64,000 bases of DNA from Candidatus Peribacteria bacterium (GTDB lineage Bacteria; Patescibacteriota; Gracilibacteria; Peribacterales; Peribacteraceae). Position numbers and translations under genes: made by a program. The stretch lies in contig SICN01000001.1 of NCBI GenBank assembly GCA_009691405.1, forward strand, positions 1 through 64,000, given 5' to 3'. Below the pieces are notes generated by a model, which saw only the letters and a program-made list of their open reading frames with translations, made no database searches and was not told the origin of the DNA. Shown here piece after piece: positions 6,669 to 63,879 of this stretch (positions within the stretch are counted from its first letter, which is position 1; each line of letters starts with the position of its first letter).

Positions 6669-7802
6669 ATGAAGACTATTCTCCTCATCAGCCCCTATTG
6701 GAAAGAAGATCATCGTTGGATGGTGAGCTCCTATAAACTTGCCGAACTGTGGCAGAGATTGGGGTATCGAGTCATCGTTCTCTGCATGGGGAGAACTCCC
6801 GGTTTCACGAAGATGAGTGAGACACTCGAAATTCATCGTCTCAAGGATTTTTTTCTGAAGGATCCCTGGAATTACGGCATTGCATTTGGTTTCAGCAGGT
6901 ACGCTCTTCGTTTGGCGAAAGAGAGCAACCCCGACATCATCATCATCAATAAAGTGCTCTTCTGGAGTTCGATTGCATTGCTTCGCCTTCGTCTTGCAGG
7001 ATACAACGTGCTTCTCACGACCGATGCTCTGGTCGGGATCACGTGGTGGCCGCGCGGGCGAATCGCAAAAATTTGCGCGGCGATCTACGCATGGACGCTT
7101 GGGTGGCTGATTTTAAAATGTGCAACGAAGATCATCTTCTTCCATCCGCAGTCGCCTGCCATCTTGAAGAGACTGGGTATTTTTGAGAAGTCTTTGGTTA
7201 TTCCTACGGGTATTGACCCCACTAGCTATCAGAGATCAGCGATGACCGATGGACTCACCGCTCACCGTTTACCGCTCACCGCTACGTACATCGGTCGCCT
7301 TGAGTCCGTGAAAGGTGCGGATGACTTCGTCGCCGCGGCACTTGTTGTGAAGAAAACGCATCCGACACTCACCATTCAAGTTGTCGGTTGGCATCCATCC
7401 GATCATCCGCTTGTCGCCGCTCATGCTTCGAGAGTGTCCTTCACGGGACTTCGAAACGATATTTCAAAAATTTTGTCCGCCACGGATATTTTTGTCTTGC
7501 CCAGTTATTCTGAGGGTCTCAGCAATGCTCTTATGGAAGCCATGAGCAGCGGATGCGCATGCATTGCAAGCGACGTCGGTGGCAATCGCTTCCTCATCCA
7601 GAACGGCGTTTCAGGTTTTCTGTTTCCTCCCGGTGACCGCGAAGCGCTTGCCGGGCACATTCGTCGTCTTGTCGAAGACGATTCGAAGAGAGCATCACTT
7701 GGGCAGCAGGCGAGGAAGAGGATTGACGAAATGTTCAGCTGGGCAAAAGTATCGGAGCAATATCGCACACTCTTTCATGAGTGGATTTCCTCTCGCTCAT
7801 GA
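6669..7802 (+). CDS. GT4 family glycosyltransferase
   Basis: YIGRLESVKGADDFVAA, VLPSYSEGLSNALMEAMSSGCACIASDVGGN. Confidence 0.92.
   Translation: MKTILLISPYWKEDHRWMVSSYKLAELWQRLGYRVIVLCMGRTPGFTKMSETLEIHRLKDFFLKDPWNYGIAFGFSRYALRLAKESNPDIIIINKVLFWSSIALLRLRLAGYNVLLTTDALVGITWWPRGRIAKICAAIYAWTLGWLILKCATKIIFFHPQSPAILKRLGIFEKSLVIPTGIDPTSYQRSAMTDGLTAHRLPLTATYIGRLESVKGADDFVAAALVVKKTHPTLTIQVVGWHPSDHPLVAAHASRVSFTGLRNDISKILSATDIFVLPSYSEGLSNALMEAMSSGCACIASDVGGNRFLIQNGVSGFLFPPGDREALAGHIRRLVEDDSKRASLGQQARKRIDEMFSWAKVSEQYRTLFHEWISSRS
7226..7281. repeat. In-frame heptad array (CTCACCG CTCACCG TTTACCG CTCACCG) with degenerate upstream heptads
   Basis: Exact 7-bp period at 7254-7281 inside the GT4 gene; encodes MTDGLTAHRLPLT. 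Confidence 0.6.
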
Positions 7803-36434: not shown

Positions 36435-37430
36435 GTGCTTTCTCTGATCCTCCCTACCTACAATGAAGCGGCGAATATCAGTAACCTTCTCGAGATGCTC
36501 GATGGGGTGCTTGCAAACATTCCGCACGAGATCATCGTGGTGGACGACAACTCTCCGGATCAGACGTGGAAAATCGCAACGGAAACCTCGAAGTTGCGCG
36601 GATGCATCAAGGTGCTTCGGCGTATGCACAAGAAGGGCCTCAGTTCCGCGGTTGTCGACGGGTTGGATGCGGCACACGGGACGATTCTCGCCGTCATGGA
36701 CAGCGACGGTCAGCACGATGCTCAACTTCTTCTGTCACTTGTGGAGCACATTCGGCAGGGTGCTGACATCAGTATCGGTTCCCGTTACGTGGAAGGCGGA
36801 AGTGTCGGTTCGTGGGTGAGAGATCGGCGCATCATCAGCAGAGTCGGCACGTTCTTCGCTAAACGTTTGTCACGGGTTCCGGTGAGCGATCCGCTCGGAG
36901 GGTTCTTTGTATTGAAGCGCAGCGTATACCAAATCGTACGTCCGACATTGCATCCGACGGGCTTCAAAATTCTTTTGGAAATCCTTGCAGCTGTTCCGAA
37001 GCAGACCAAGCTGACGGAGGTTCCGTTGATTTTTCGCATGCGACTGCACGGTCAGAGCAAGTTATCGCTTCGAGTGCACGTCGCTTTTCTGTGTCAGATT
37101 ATTCGACTGTCCTTTCGTTCGTTTGTGGAATTGCTCCGGAAGTCAGGGATGATTCTCTTCATGACGCTGATCGTGATGACTGCTGTTTGGCTCTTCCCTC
37201 GTTTGCTCTCCCTACGTCTTCTCTACACGGATCCGACGATGCGAGAACGCGTGCAATCCGCTCTCACGACCGTTGCAGATAGGGAAGGATGGTTGCTCTC
37301 GGATATTGAGCTGCGCTCGGTTTCTTCGGACTCGATCGAAATATTGCATCGAGATCATCTTCGAACCGAGGCACCCGTTCGCGCTTGCACCATTCATCTT
37401 TCTTCATCGACTCTGTCATGTCCGGAATAA
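36435..37430 (+). CDS. GT2 dolichol-phosphate mannosyltransferase-like glycosyltransferase
   Basis: LSLILPTYNEAANISNLLEML, IIVVDDNSPDQTW, AVMDSDGQHDAQLLLSL; probable GTG start at 36435. Confidence 0.9.
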   Translation: MLSLILPTYNEAANISNLLEMLDGVLANIPHEIIVVDDNSPDQTWKIATETSKLRGCIKVLRRMHKKGLSSAVVDGLDAAHGTILAVMDSDGQHDAQLLLSLVEHIRQGADISIGSRYVEGGSVGSWVRDRRIISRVGTFFAKRLSRVPVSDPLGGFFVLKRSVYQIVRPTLHPTGFKILLEILAAVPKQTKLTEVPLIFRMRLHGQSKLSLRVHVAFLCQIIRLSFRSFVELLRKSGMILFMTLIVMTAVWLFPRLLSLRLLYTDPTMRERVQSALTTVADREGWLLSDIELRSVSSDSIEILHRDHLRTEAPVRACTIHLSSSTLSCPE

Positions 37431-38617
37431 CACTCAGAATCTGGCTTCTTGAATTCTATGCGTTAGCGCTTGCGCTCATTCGCATGCCGGGTGGCGTGCA
37501 TACGGACGAAGCGAAGTACCTCCTTTCGATTCCTTATCCTCATCCTCCGATTCTCCGTTCGCTCTTCGCGATGCTACGAGAGATGCCCCTGCAGGAATTT
37601 TTCATTCGTTTTCTCATCGCCAGCGCTCTCGTGCAGGCGGTATGGCTTCTCGTCGATATCGGTTACGTTCTCTCACATCGGAGGCGGATAGTGCTGGTGT
37701 TGAGTTGGCTTTTGAGCTCTGCTCTCGTGTTGCAGGCAGGTACGGTGATGATGGTATCGCTCACCGCACTCTTCGGACTCGTGTGTGCTTGGCTTGCCCT
37801 TAGGCCGCAGCCAATTCGGCAAACATCAGCGCCTCTTCTTGCGTGCCTGTGGCTCTTCGCACTCTTCAGCGTCTACCAGTCCGTGCTCTACCTTCCTCTT
37901 CTCATCGGCATTCTCCGTGCTGCACAGACTTCCTATCGCAGAATGTTGTTGTTCCTCGCTCTGCCGCTTCTGCTGCTTGCGATGTACACACTGATCAATC
38001 CTCTCATCCTTGCGAGTATGGTGAATGTATCCTCGCAGGATGCAGTCTTGGAACTTGGCGTGCGCTTGTCGAATGTGCTCTGGATTTCTTTGGTCGCAGG
38101 AAGCGGCATTGTCACCCTTGCAGGGATCGTCGGGATTGCCTTAAGCAAGCGCATCGATTTCATCGCAACGCTCTTTCTCTTATCCGGATTCATCGCTCTT
38201 ACTAGCCAGGATTACTACGCGATTCTCCTGACACCCGTGCTGTGTGCCGGTGTGATGTTGCTCCTTGGCAAACGGAAGATTTCGGGAGAACTTTTCATAC
38301 CGCTTCATATTCTTTCGACTGCCGTCTTCATATTTATGGCTTTCCCACGCACACCAATCACTCCTGCACGCATGACGATGCGATACTTGGCGGAGCAGAA
38401 TATTCAAGGATTCGTGCTGATCGACGGACCATTCGGACACGAGTGGCAGTACGAGAGCATAGGGCACTCGATCCGTCGTTTCACACAGACGCTCTCTTCA
38501 TCGATCGAAGCATCGGCTGCCGCAATCGTTTGCACCAAACACACATGCGAAGAGGATGTCTCTGAAGATTGGATGAGGATGGAGGGTGCGCCGGTGGAGG
38601 TGTGGATAAAGCGATGA
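37418..38617 (+). CDS. Polytopic membrane protein, GT-C-like (GGVHTDEAKYLL near N-terminus)
   Basis: Hydrophobic ORF, acidic loop after the first TM as in PMT/ArnT families. Confidence 0.6.
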   Translation: MSGITLRIWLLEFYALALALIRMPGGVHTDEAKYLLSIPYPHPPILRSLFAMLREMPLQEFFIRFLIASALVQAVWLLVDIGYVLSHRRRIVLVLSWLLSSALVLQAGTVMMVSLTALFGLVCAWLALRPQPIRQTSAPLLACLWLFALFSVYQSVLYLPLLIGILRAAQTSYRRMLLFLALPLLLLAMYTLINPLILASMVNVSSQDAVLELGVRLSNVLWISLVAGSGIVTLAGIVGIALSKRIDFIATLFLLSGFIALTSQDYYAILLTPVLCAGVMLLLGKRKISGELFIPLHILSTAVFIFMAFPRTPITPARMTMRYLAEQNIQGFVLIDGPFGHEWQYESIGHSIRRFTQTLSSSIEASAAAIVCTKHTCEEDVSEDWMRMEGAPVEVWIKR

Positions 38618-38682
38618 GCTTTGAGCTCTGAGCGATGAGGGAACAGTGCTCAAAGCTCATGACTCATAGCTCACAGCTGATA
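38613..38682. repeat. Heptad inverted array: 4 x NNTGAGC-like, spacer, then GCTCANN-like heptads (10 heptads in phase)
   Basis: gatgagc tttgagc tctgagc gatgagg gaacagt gctcaaa gctcatg actcata gctcaca gctgata. Confidence 0.85.
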
Positions 38683-39618
38683 ATATTCCCTATACCATTC
38701 CACAAACTTCGGTACACCCTGTGCAATGCGTGTCTTCGGCTCGAAACCGAGCATTGTCTTTGCCTTCGAGATGTCGGCCAAACTCGCTCTGGTATCGCCG
38801 GGTTGCATGGGGTGAAATTCTTTCTTCGCTTCCTTGCCGCAAGACGTCTCGACCATGCGGATGTACTCCATCAATTCCTCCTGCCTTCCGCAGCCCAAGT
38901 TGAAGAGTTCTTCCGGATAATTTTTGTCGATCGCGGCGATGATTCCAGAGACGATGTCGTCGATGTATGTGAAATCGCGTTGCATTTTCCCTTCGCCGTA
39001 GACGGTCAGCGGACGATCATGCAGGAGTGCGTCCGTAAAGAGGAAGAGTGCCATGTCGGGTCGACCGAGTGGACCATAGACCGTGAAGAACCGCAGTCCC
39101 GTGACGTTTGTGCCATAGAGCGAGTGGTAGGTATGTGCCATCAGCTCGTTGTCTTTCTTGTTCTGACCGTAGAGCGAGAGCTGATCATCTGTGCGATCCG
39201 ATTCGGAGGAGGGGAGTTTGGTGTTGCCGCCGTAGACCGAGCTGCTTGAGGCGTAGATCAGTCCGGGGATTTTCTGTTTTCGAACTTCGTCGAGCACATG
39301 GAAGAACCCGGTGATGTTGATCGCGATGTATTCGTCCGGATGATCAAATGCGTACCGGACTCCTGCGAGTGCGGCAAGATGCAGCACACGATCGACGCCG
39401 TTCATCGCTTTTGCGACTGTGGCGCGGTCCAGAATATCACCTCTGATAAACGTGAAGCCTTTCTTTTCTTGCAGCAGCTTGAGCCGCGCCTCCTTGAGTG
39501 TTGGGTCGTAGTAATTGCTGACATTATCAAGCCCGATCACTTCGTCCCCGCGCTCAAGCAGTTTGACAGTCGTGTGGTAGCCGATGAATCCGGCAGCGCC
39601 GGTCAGGAGGATTCTCAT
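38671..39618 (-). CDS. UDP-glucuronate 4-epimerase-like NAD-dependent epimerase
   Basis: MRILLTGAAGFIGYHTTVKLLERGDEVIGLDNVSNYYDPTLKEARL, YASSSSVYGGN, GLRFFTVYGPLGRPDMA. Confidence 0.92.
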   Translation of the reverse strand: MRILLTGAAGFIGYHTTVKLLERGDEVIGLDNVSNYYDPTLKEARLKLLQEKKGFTFIRGDILDRATVAKAMNGVDRVLHLAALAGVRYAFDHPDEYIAINITGFFHVLDEVRKQKIPGLIYASSSSVYGGNTKLPSSESDRTDDQLSLYGQNKKDNELMAHTYHSLYGTNVTGLRFFTVYGPLGRPDMALFLFTDALLHDRPLTVYGEGKMQRDFTYIDDIVSGIIAAIDKNYPEELFNLGCGRQEELMEYIRMVETSCGKEAKKEFHPMQPGDTRASLADISKAKTMLGFEPKTRIAQGVPKFVEWYREYYQL

Positions 39619-42177: not shown

Positions 42178-42252
42178 ATTCCAAAACGTAAAAGCCAAAT
42201 TTCAAGATCGGCAATGATCGTTTTGGATTTTGGAATTTGGAATTTGGGTTTT
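42176..42252. repeat. Heptad inverted array (11 heptads in phase) between pfkB-type gene and ahcY
   Basis: aaattcc aaaacgt aaaagcc aaatttc aagatcg gcaatga tcgtttt ggatttt ggaattt ggaattt gggtttt. Confidence 0.85.
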
Positions 42253-61995: not shown

Positions 61996-62363
61996 ATGGA
62001 GCAGATCTCCGGTCAGCCATCGGTTATCGATTTCGATAGATTGCTTGAAGAAATGCGAGACATGGACGATCGAAACCGATTAGGGAATTGTTGTCGGGTG
62101 ACGGACCATCCGAGGAGGAATTGACCGACATGGTTGATCGTTCGCGTGCGTTTGCAACGTCGGCGGAGCACACATCGAATATTGCGCTTCTGCAGCAGAT
62201 TGCCAGAGTCCGCGTGCTTGCCAACACGTTGGGAATCAGAGCACTTCTTCTCGAGATGTTCAGAGATGACAATGATCGCGGTCGAGACGACGAGAATCCT
62301 TTCCCGATGCGACCGAATCATCCGCGCGGCGTTCGTAGTCTTTTCCCTGTGCTTGCGGCGTGA
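61996..62363 (+). pseudogene. Possible frameshifted small gene (MEQISGQPSVIDFDRLLEEMRDMDDRN... / ...RELLSGDGPSEEELTDMVDRSRAFATS...)
   Basis: Two overlapping frames with coherent acidic helical composition abut near 62060-62090. Confidence 0.4.
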
Positions 62364-62391
62364 GTTCTCACTCCGTTGTACACTGCTGAGC

Positions 62392-63879
62392 ATGACCTTT
62401 CAGCACACTCGTGAACGGCTCACGCTTTTGCTTCTTGCACTGCTGCCATTTCATGCTTTTTTAGTGACGGTTTTGACTCGGGTGATCGCAGGACCGGGTC
62501 ATGCACCGCTTCCCGAACTCGCGGTGTGGAAAGAGGCGATTCTTGGATTGATTCTCATCCTTGCATTCGTAGAACTTGTGAAGAAACGAACGATACCGGT
62601 CGCAGATGTCATCGATTGCATCATCCTTTCGCTTGGTTTTGTTGCATTGGCACTTCGGCTGATGCATCACCAATCGGCAACAGTGTTTGCGTTCGGTTTT
62701 AAGTACGACTTGCTTCCACTCATTGCTTTCATCCTCCTCCGCCGAGTCAACTGGTCTGACGAATTCCACACAACGCTTCTTCGACTGCTGCTCCTGGTCG
62801 GTTGCATTGTCGCAGCGTACGGCATCGTTGCCGAATTTCTCCCGCTCCGATTTTTCGTCTGGCTTGGCTACTCCGATCTGCATTCTCTATACGTCGCAAA
62901 CGGTCCGCTTGCAGCATTTCAGGAACTTGAAGGCGGGATGATGCGACGAGCGCAGAGCAGTATGAGCGGGCCGAATCAGTTGGGGCTTTGGCTGTTGATT
63001 CCTCTTGGGGTGTTGCTTGGAGGAAAGAATGTCGGAGAAGAAATGAGCGGGAAACGCATAGCAATCGGTGTGTTGTTGCTTTTGGCACTGATGCTCAGTT
63101 TTTCCCGTGCTGCCTGGATCGCAGCAGCGGTGATGATCATCTTTGCATTCGCCAGATCAACGAGTGCTCTGCATTGTCGTAAACTTTACGTCGTGATTCT
63201 TGGGTTCTTGGCATGCTTCGGCATTGCAGTCACTCTTCTGTTTCCATCAGTTTTTTTCCGCTTCCAGTCTTCATCCGATCACATCCGAAAACCCGTCGAA
63301 GCAATCAGGATAATGATGGATCATCCATTCGGTCTCGGTCTCGGTACGGCAGGACCCGCGAGCAATCGTTTTAGTGATACGTGCGTGAAACTTCCGAAAG
63401 ATTCCGACTGGTCGTGGGCAAAGGATCGGCAGGATCTCTGCGTGTTTGTCGATGGCAATCAAGTCCAGCCTTCGCTCCCGTCGGGGGAGCTACGGCCGGC
63501 AGGCCAGCCTTCCGCCCGTGCGTGCTCCTGTCCGCTTCTCACCGAGAACTGGTATCTGCAGATTGGCGTCGAGCTCGGATGGATTGGATTGATTCTGAGC
63601 TTGTTGTTGCCAATTTTTATCTTGAGACAATTGATAATTGAAAATGGAAAATTGAAAATAAATGTGGAATTATCAATTATCAATTATCAATTATCAATTT
63701 TTCTGGGTCTCTCTCTTGCTGCTCTCTTTTTACATGCATTCGAGGACAGCGCGGTTGCGTACACGGTTTGGGTGCTGCTTGCGTCTGCTTTTGCTACACT
63801 TCACCCATGTCATCGCCTTCTCAGCCGATCGCAGGGTCCATCGTCATCCTCGACTTCGGCGGACAGTACGCGCATCTGA
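62392..63879 (+). CDS. O-antigen ligase / polymerase (WaaL-Wzy-like) membrane protein
   Basis: Many TMs; RAQSSMSGPNQLGLWLLIPLG, LSFSRAAWIAAAVMI, NWYLQIGVELGWIGLILSL. Confidence 0.88.
   Translation: MTFQHTRERLTLLLLALLPFHAFLVTVLTRVIAGPGHAPLPELAVWKEAILGLILILAFVELVKKRTIPVADVIDCIILSLGFVALALRLMHHQSATVFAFGFKYDLLPLIAFILLRRVNWSDEFHTTLLRLLLLVGCIVAAYGIVAEFLPLRFFVWLGYSDLHSLYVANGPLAAFQELEGGMMRRAQSSMSGPNQLGLWLLIPLGVLLGGKNVGEEMSGKRIAIGVLLLLALMLSFSRAAWIAAAVMIIFAFARSTSALHCRKLYVVILGFLACFGIAVTLLFPSVFFRFQSSSDHIRKPVEAIRIMMDHPFGLGLGTAGPASNRFSDTCVKLPKDSDWSWAKDRQDLCVFVDGNQVQPSLPSGELRPAGQPSARACSCPLLTENWYLQIGVELGWIGLILSLLLPIFILRQLIIENGKLKINVELSIINYQLSIFLGLSLAALFLHAFEDSAVAYTVWVLLASAFATLHPCHRLLSRSQGPSSSSTSADSTRI
63465..63510. 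repeat. In-frame mini-repeat (ccagccttcgctcccgtcgggggagctacggccggcaggccagcc) in O-antigen ligase
   Basis: Shares cores with elements at 13276 and 44194; translated QPSLPSGELRPAGQPS. Confidence 0.7.
63627..63700. repeat. In-frame heptad inverted array in O-antigen ligase (4 x TTGAAAA-like, spacer, 4 x TCAATTA)
   Basis: ttgataa ttgaaaa tggaaaa ttgaaaa taaatgt ggaatta tcaatta tcaatta tcaatta tcaattt. Confidence 0.85.

Follow-up and report, generated by a model that had tools for sequence, protein, structure and literature searches.

A dispersed palindromic repeat with heptanucleotide arms in genomes of Peribacteria

The gap between two convergent genes in a genome of Candidatus Peribacteria is filled by a palindrome whose arms are tandem units of seven nucleotides. 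This is a real, well-defined dispersed repeat, akin to palindromes of the REP and RPE types, although the gene association that defines a REPIN is absent. Its copies share one architecture, are numerous, are missing from the same site in a congener, avoid stop codons where they lie in frame inside genes, and have counterparts of other words (here, the seven-nucleotide unit of an arm) at the same sites. On balance, the element is probably one copy of a REP-like, non-autonomous palindromic repeat that spreads by the copying of existing elements. For the host, no function is proposed beyond tolerance and, at this locus, the ending of translation.

Here, "the window" is the whole stretch of 64 kb that was analyzed, and the "host genome" is the one from which it comes.

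The element and its two genes

The borders of the element come from an alignment of 13 copies. The features at the locus are as follows.

37385-38617, + strand: membrane protein of 410 aa with no Pfam hit; the convergent neighbor, whose adjacency to the epimerase is kept in relatives
38610-38678: whole repeat unit (alignment of 13 copies)
38610-38639, + strand: left arm, AGC-(NNTGAGC)x3-NN-TGAG, four heptads (alignment of 13 copies)
38615-38617, + strand: TGA stop of the upstream + strand gene, in heptad 1
38640-38648, + strand: loop GGAACAGTG, 9 nt, differing among copies (alignment of 13 copies)
38649-38678, + strand: right arm, the mirrored half, CTCA-NN-(GCTCA-NN)x3-GCT with ACTCA as its third core (copy alignment, inverted-repeat search, folding)
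38671-38673, - strand: TGA stop of the epimerase (TCA on the + strand), in heptad 9
38671-39618, - strand: NAD-dependent epimerase/dehydratase (PF01370)

When aligned with the other copies, the 5' half of the unit reads AGC-NN-TGAGC-NN-TGAGC-NN-TGAGC-NN-TGAG, which is followed by the 9-nt loop and then by a 3' half that reads CTCA-NN-GCTCA-NN-(A/G)CTCA-NN-GCTCA-NN-GCT. An initial annotation had described ten heptads at 38613-38682. These ten blocks are indeed found when the sequence is read again, but the copy alignment moves the borders of the unit to 38610-38678 and dissolves the tenth "heptad" into the final GCT of the element plus codons of the epimerase. The mirrored halves that it had seen hold up well. 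An inverted-repeat search pairs 38614-38630 with 38644-38660 at 94% complementarity, and the two strands fold well below shuffled sequences (z of -3.8 and -4.3). It had also reported an overlap with the 3' end of the epimerase gene in a convergent gap; the overlap is in fact with both genes, the element filling the gap between them and supplying both TGA stops.

A position of this kind, together with a strong fold on either strand, is what might be expected of a regulatory or terminator hairpin that is kept by selection at gene ends. Further, the gap of the same gene pair holds lag-7 arrays (several words) in 8 of 18 loci from relatives, where the control lags give one array (lag 8) or none (lags 5, 6, 9, 10, and 11). 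A functional hairpin is nevertheless improbable. The element has no T run and is not among the sites reported by a scan for intrinsic terminators, the congener G001 manages without it, and many copies lie within coding sequence. In the NNTGAGC/GCTCANN copies, base-pair counts over the 13 aligned sequences find the cores paired and the NN positions mostly unpaired. These 13 copies contain no compensatory change in the stem, and therefore no RNA fold under selection is claimed. The element matches no Rfam model, the single sub-threshold hit being located outside it.

In G001, the two genes at this locus overlap with nothing between them, which makes this an empty site. As a separate observation, the genome G002 carries at this site (L082:6440-6680) a different, non-heptad, hairpin-like sequence, GCGGAGGTTACGAACCTCCGC.

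A period of seven above chance

Periodicity was scanned in samples rather than whole genomes, covering about 431 kb of the host genome and parts of six relatives. Within the window, the lag-7 peak of the element reaches 39 of 56 matches and is the second strongest; none of 100 shuffled sequences of 64 kb scores above 35. Over the 431 kb of host genome, 24 peaks occur at lag 7, against zero or one at each of lags 4, 5, 8, 10, 11, and 13. A stricter segment score gives 30 at lag 7 and 0-1 at the control lags. Lags divisible by 3 are raised as well, from codon structure; lag 7 is the sole enriched periodicity that has no codon explanation. When up to one mismatch is allowed, the pattern GCTCANNGCTCANNGCTCA matches 17 times in the 1.01-Mb genome, while the reversed pattern, used as a control, does not match at all. 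The density of lag-7 arrays differs between genomes, with 35 per 446 kb in the host genome, 22 per 400 kb in G002, and 5 per 400 kb in G001.

The initial annotation had named two outcomes that would speak against it, a lag-7 signal without excess in the genome and other copies without mirrored halves. Lag 7 stands above its controls, and the mirrored halves are present in other copies.

Two-copy short repeats do, of course, arise randomly in any window, and the host assembly is a draft of 45 contigs. Chance or an assembly artefact is still hardly conceivable as an explanation, being refuted by controls that are all at or near zero and by the recurrence of the same elements in independently assembled genomes. 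Lag-7 arrays in general are found in two single-contig genomes also.

A family of copies with many words

The 13 aligned copies come from unrelated loci in three species and have in common an architecture of 30 nt, loop, and 30 nt. Their loops vary, none being common to different loci. An aberrant heptad, CATG(A/T)CT, is common to copies at unrelated loci, and one left arm is identical to an arm in another genus (G022:C3:16660-16727). Among 57 genomes of the Peribacteria family, the NNTGAGC class is found in 23, with 1 to 75 matches each. The host genome has 16, G002 has 52, G022 has 75, and the congener G001 has none.

This class is one of many. Other heptad words include AATTTTC, AATTATC, TAACCAC, GAATTAT, GGGTTAT, ATTCTAC, and more, and the favorites differ by genome. 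Over all words, array length has its mode at 29-34 nt (66 of 109 arrays). Where these other words form mirrored pairs, the arms are about as long, and single arms occur too. Three such arrays lie in the window itself.

7228-7283, + strand: palindrome of the word ACCGCTC, inside a glycosyltransferase-like ORF (6669-7802)
about 42179-42252, + strand: mirrored array of the word TTTGGAA, between two genes
63626-63699, + strand: mirrored array of the words GATAATT/AATTATC, in frame in an O-antigen-ligase-like ORF (62134-63879)

Copies in frame inside genes

Six palindromes of the TGAGC class, the class to which detection was limited, lie in frame within long ORFs as delimited by a simple ORF caller. 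The genes are a glycosyltransferase (in the host genome and in G022, at the same site), LysRS (in its C-terminal linker), PurH, CarB, and IleRS. In the 5' arm of an in-gene palindrome, exactly one of the four cores would set a TGA in frame. This core is altered in all six copies (to TCA once, to AGA four times, and to CTT once), whereas the other cores are altered in 0 of 18 cases (p of 7e-6); all four copies with AGA come from G002, perhaps by common descent, and should not be counted as four independent events. From this pattern, it is very probable that in-gene copies are translated and that selection keeps their frame open. In PurH, the insert is located between the motifs LRYGENPHQ and QLxGK(D/E)(M/L)SY, where the best-matching solved structure is far shorter.

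Two of these enzymes have further peculiarities. The LysRS linker holds a heptad array in both G002 and the host genome, of different words, and the C-terminal extension of LysRS (G002 L069:10014-12164; host L058:39-986) looks HD-type-like by eye, with no Pfam hit. The IleRS of G002 (L086:15446-19813) has two inserted histidine-phosphatase domains (PGAM-like, PF00300).

Empty sites and the turnover of words

The locus in G001 is not the only such case. At further array sites of the host genome or of G002, the corresponding site in a sister genome is shorter or lacks the array; the boundaries have diverged, with no clear target-site duplication, and some sites suggest replacement more than a clean insertion. 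Fourteen host array sites could be anchored in G002, and at seven of them G002 has a lag-7 array too, compared with 1 among 48 random sites (Fisher p of 5e-5); the random sites were unmatched for intergenic position, and part of this excess may therefore reflect permissive gaps that both genomes share. At five of the seven shared sites the word is different, as judged by eye from the printed arrays. The linker of CarA gives four different words at four loci, in a scan whose anchor motif was too strict and located only about half of the loci.

The host assembly itself contains two CarA copies, each at a contig end (G000:C12, L290, and G000:C44, L016). They are 84% identical in the query region and carry different heptad arrays at the same linker; the two may come from two related organisms.

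How copies may arise

Under the reading that we favor, the unit that spreads would be a pair of inverted arms of about 31 nt, each of four heptads, joined by a short loop, with arms also able to stand alone. New copies would be made from existing elements, by a process that resembles transposition or depends on hairpins, both inside a Peribacteria genome and from one such genome to another, in bursts that differ by lineage. They would then persist where they are harmless, which is to say at gene ends, in intergenic gaps, and in protein linkers, and the same sites would be used again because they are permissive. Inside a gene, a copy would persist solely if the core that sets TGA in frame had changed, its arms then being read as linker (for example, SSKLKAQSSKLKA). 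At 38610-38678, a copy would have entered the gap of the convergent pair and now gives both stop codons. Three findings sit uneasily with spreading of this kind. Loops are unshared, whereas simple transposition of whole units predicts shared ones; different words occur at one site, which copying one element leaves unexplained; and searches for Y1 and reverse transcriptase genes found no mobilizing gene.

A REPIN of the classical kind, mobilized by a RAYT (Y1) transposase, would account for an inverted pair with singlets at high copy number, and Y1 genes do exist in the host genome and in G022. Y1 is, however, absent from the array-rich G002 and from G029, G030, and G031. Where it is present, no array is adjacent to it, the distance to the closest being 458 nt to 11 kb; moreover, the arms consist of tandem heptads whose word changes. 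Thus, Y1 is excluded as a necessary mover, and a RAYT/REPIN link is very improbable. Reverse transcriptase was found in only one of seven genomes (G030; absent from the host genome, G001, G002, G022, G029, and G031), which rejects it as the mover. No similar DNA turned up in the phage and plasmid collections searched, and an origin in either is rejected.

The more serious rival, though an unlikely one, holds that slippage multiplies a local 7-mer in situ, that fold-back (snap-back) copying then yields the inverse array, and that arrays and hairpins stay uncorrected because these genomes lack MutS and SbcD. It fits well with a period that stays at seven while the word varies and with loops that differ between copies. 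The MutS_V and SbcD_C domains are indeed absent from all seven genomes (host, G001, G002, G022, G029, G030, and G031). Heptanucleotide repeats are over-represented in many bacteria, with slippage as a proposed cause (reviewed in PMC4679880). Yet slippage predicts a falling distribution of lengths, and the observed mode is about 31 nt. Individual words reappear at numerous unrelated loci and in several genomes, and the arms are inexact complements, mostly unpaired at NN. Finally, the array-poor G001 lacks the same repair genes, so their absence may permit arrays but does not explain them; loss of mismatch repair or SbcCD is rejected as a sufficient cause.

This choice has wider interest. Reports that heptanucleotide repeats are over-represented in bacteria go back years, and no explanation has won acceptance. 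Quantized arms, mirrored halves, the turnover of words at conserved sites, and selection for open copies in essential enzymes of genomes of about 1 Mb are not predicted by slippage on its own. Array-rich and array-poor congeners make the question of slippage versus mobile element directly testable.

Relation to known repeats

Like REPs and REPINs, the repeats here are inverted pairs and singlets of a unit of about 30 nt at high copy number; unlike them, they are unassociated with a RAYT/Y1 gene and have arms of tandem heptads. Rickettsia palindromic elements (RPEs) have inserted in frame into genes that are unrelated to one another, some of them metabolic, and are translated (PMC10969869). The six in-gene palindromes likewise leave the frame open through the element. 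By their description, RPEs are, however, about 150 bp long and fall into defined families (PMC10969869), whereas the elements here measure about 70 nt and have arms of heptads whose word changes.

The P6b stem of the Nostoc tRNA-Leu(UAA) group I intron is built from heptads of the form TDNGATT (class I) or NNTGAGT (class II), and at one and the same site either class can take the place of the other with a similar fold (PMC4476775). It, too, is a degenerate hairpin of mirrored heptads; its word NNTGAGT is one base off the NNTGAGC seen here, and the turnover of words at orthologous sites here resembles its behavior in Nostoc trnL introns (PMC4476775). P6b is a single site in an intron RNA, whereas each genome here has the repeats at dozens of places, both between genes and within those for proteins, with arms of fixed length and many words. 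The initial annotation had compared the array with P6b and with cyanobacterial heptamers, aptly (PMC4476775), but it missed the fixed four-heptad arm, the dispersal, the in-frame copies in enzymes, and the other words in the window. It had known of no description for this type of genome, and the literature searched likewise gave none of such repeats in Peribacteria or CPR.

The repeats here also qualify as dispersed heptanucleotide repeats, having tandem 7-nt units at many genomic sites. Published examples, as described in the parts of the reports that were available, are TAACTGA in Beggiatoaceae, Cyanobacteria, and Bacteroidetes (PMC4679880), GGGAATC and GGGGA(C/T)T in Xanthomonas and Nostoc (PMC4692102), and four-heptad GGGACCG elements in Geobacter metallireducens, with 49 copies (PMC2700814). 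In those parts, the published arrays are, as here, dispersed, often of four units, inter- and intragenic, patchy over taxa, and of unexplained origin. They are described there mainly as direct repeats, and the mirrored pair, the turnover of words at orthologous sites, and the avoidance of stops in enzymes are features here that those parts do not mention. The words listed above also differ from TAACTGA, GGGAATC, and GGGACCG.

A scan of GTDB genomes for TGAGCTNTGAGCTNTGAGC gave at least 116 stretches in many phyla; chance alone would give about 30 in random sequence of the same size. Most of the stretches retrieved from among the matches listed extend past TGAGCTNTGAGCTNTGAGC. This sample scores 164 at lag 7 against at most 14 at control lags, an excess that shows extension and the company of other words rather than prevalence, the sample having been pre-selected for the pattern. 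It is possible, if rather doubtful, that there is a bacteria-wide class of repeat-armed palindromes with four tandem 7- or 8-mers per arm (about 31 nt), in which geometry is inherited while the word changes and arrays at fixed sites are overwritten by those of another word, implying dedicated machinery for writing or moving such arms. Cyanobacterial STRRs, trnL P6b, TAACTGA, and the Geobacter four-heptad elements would then be members.

A period of eight is seen in G022 (L108, L110, L111, and L112). Its palindromes have arms of 28-33 nt, each built from four AATTGYTA units, and the motif TTTCGCTTGCG recurs in their inner part. Pattern matches number 126+93 in G022, with almost none in 54 other genomes. 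Their amplification in this one genome shows that bursts of spread do occur among repeat-armed palindromes.
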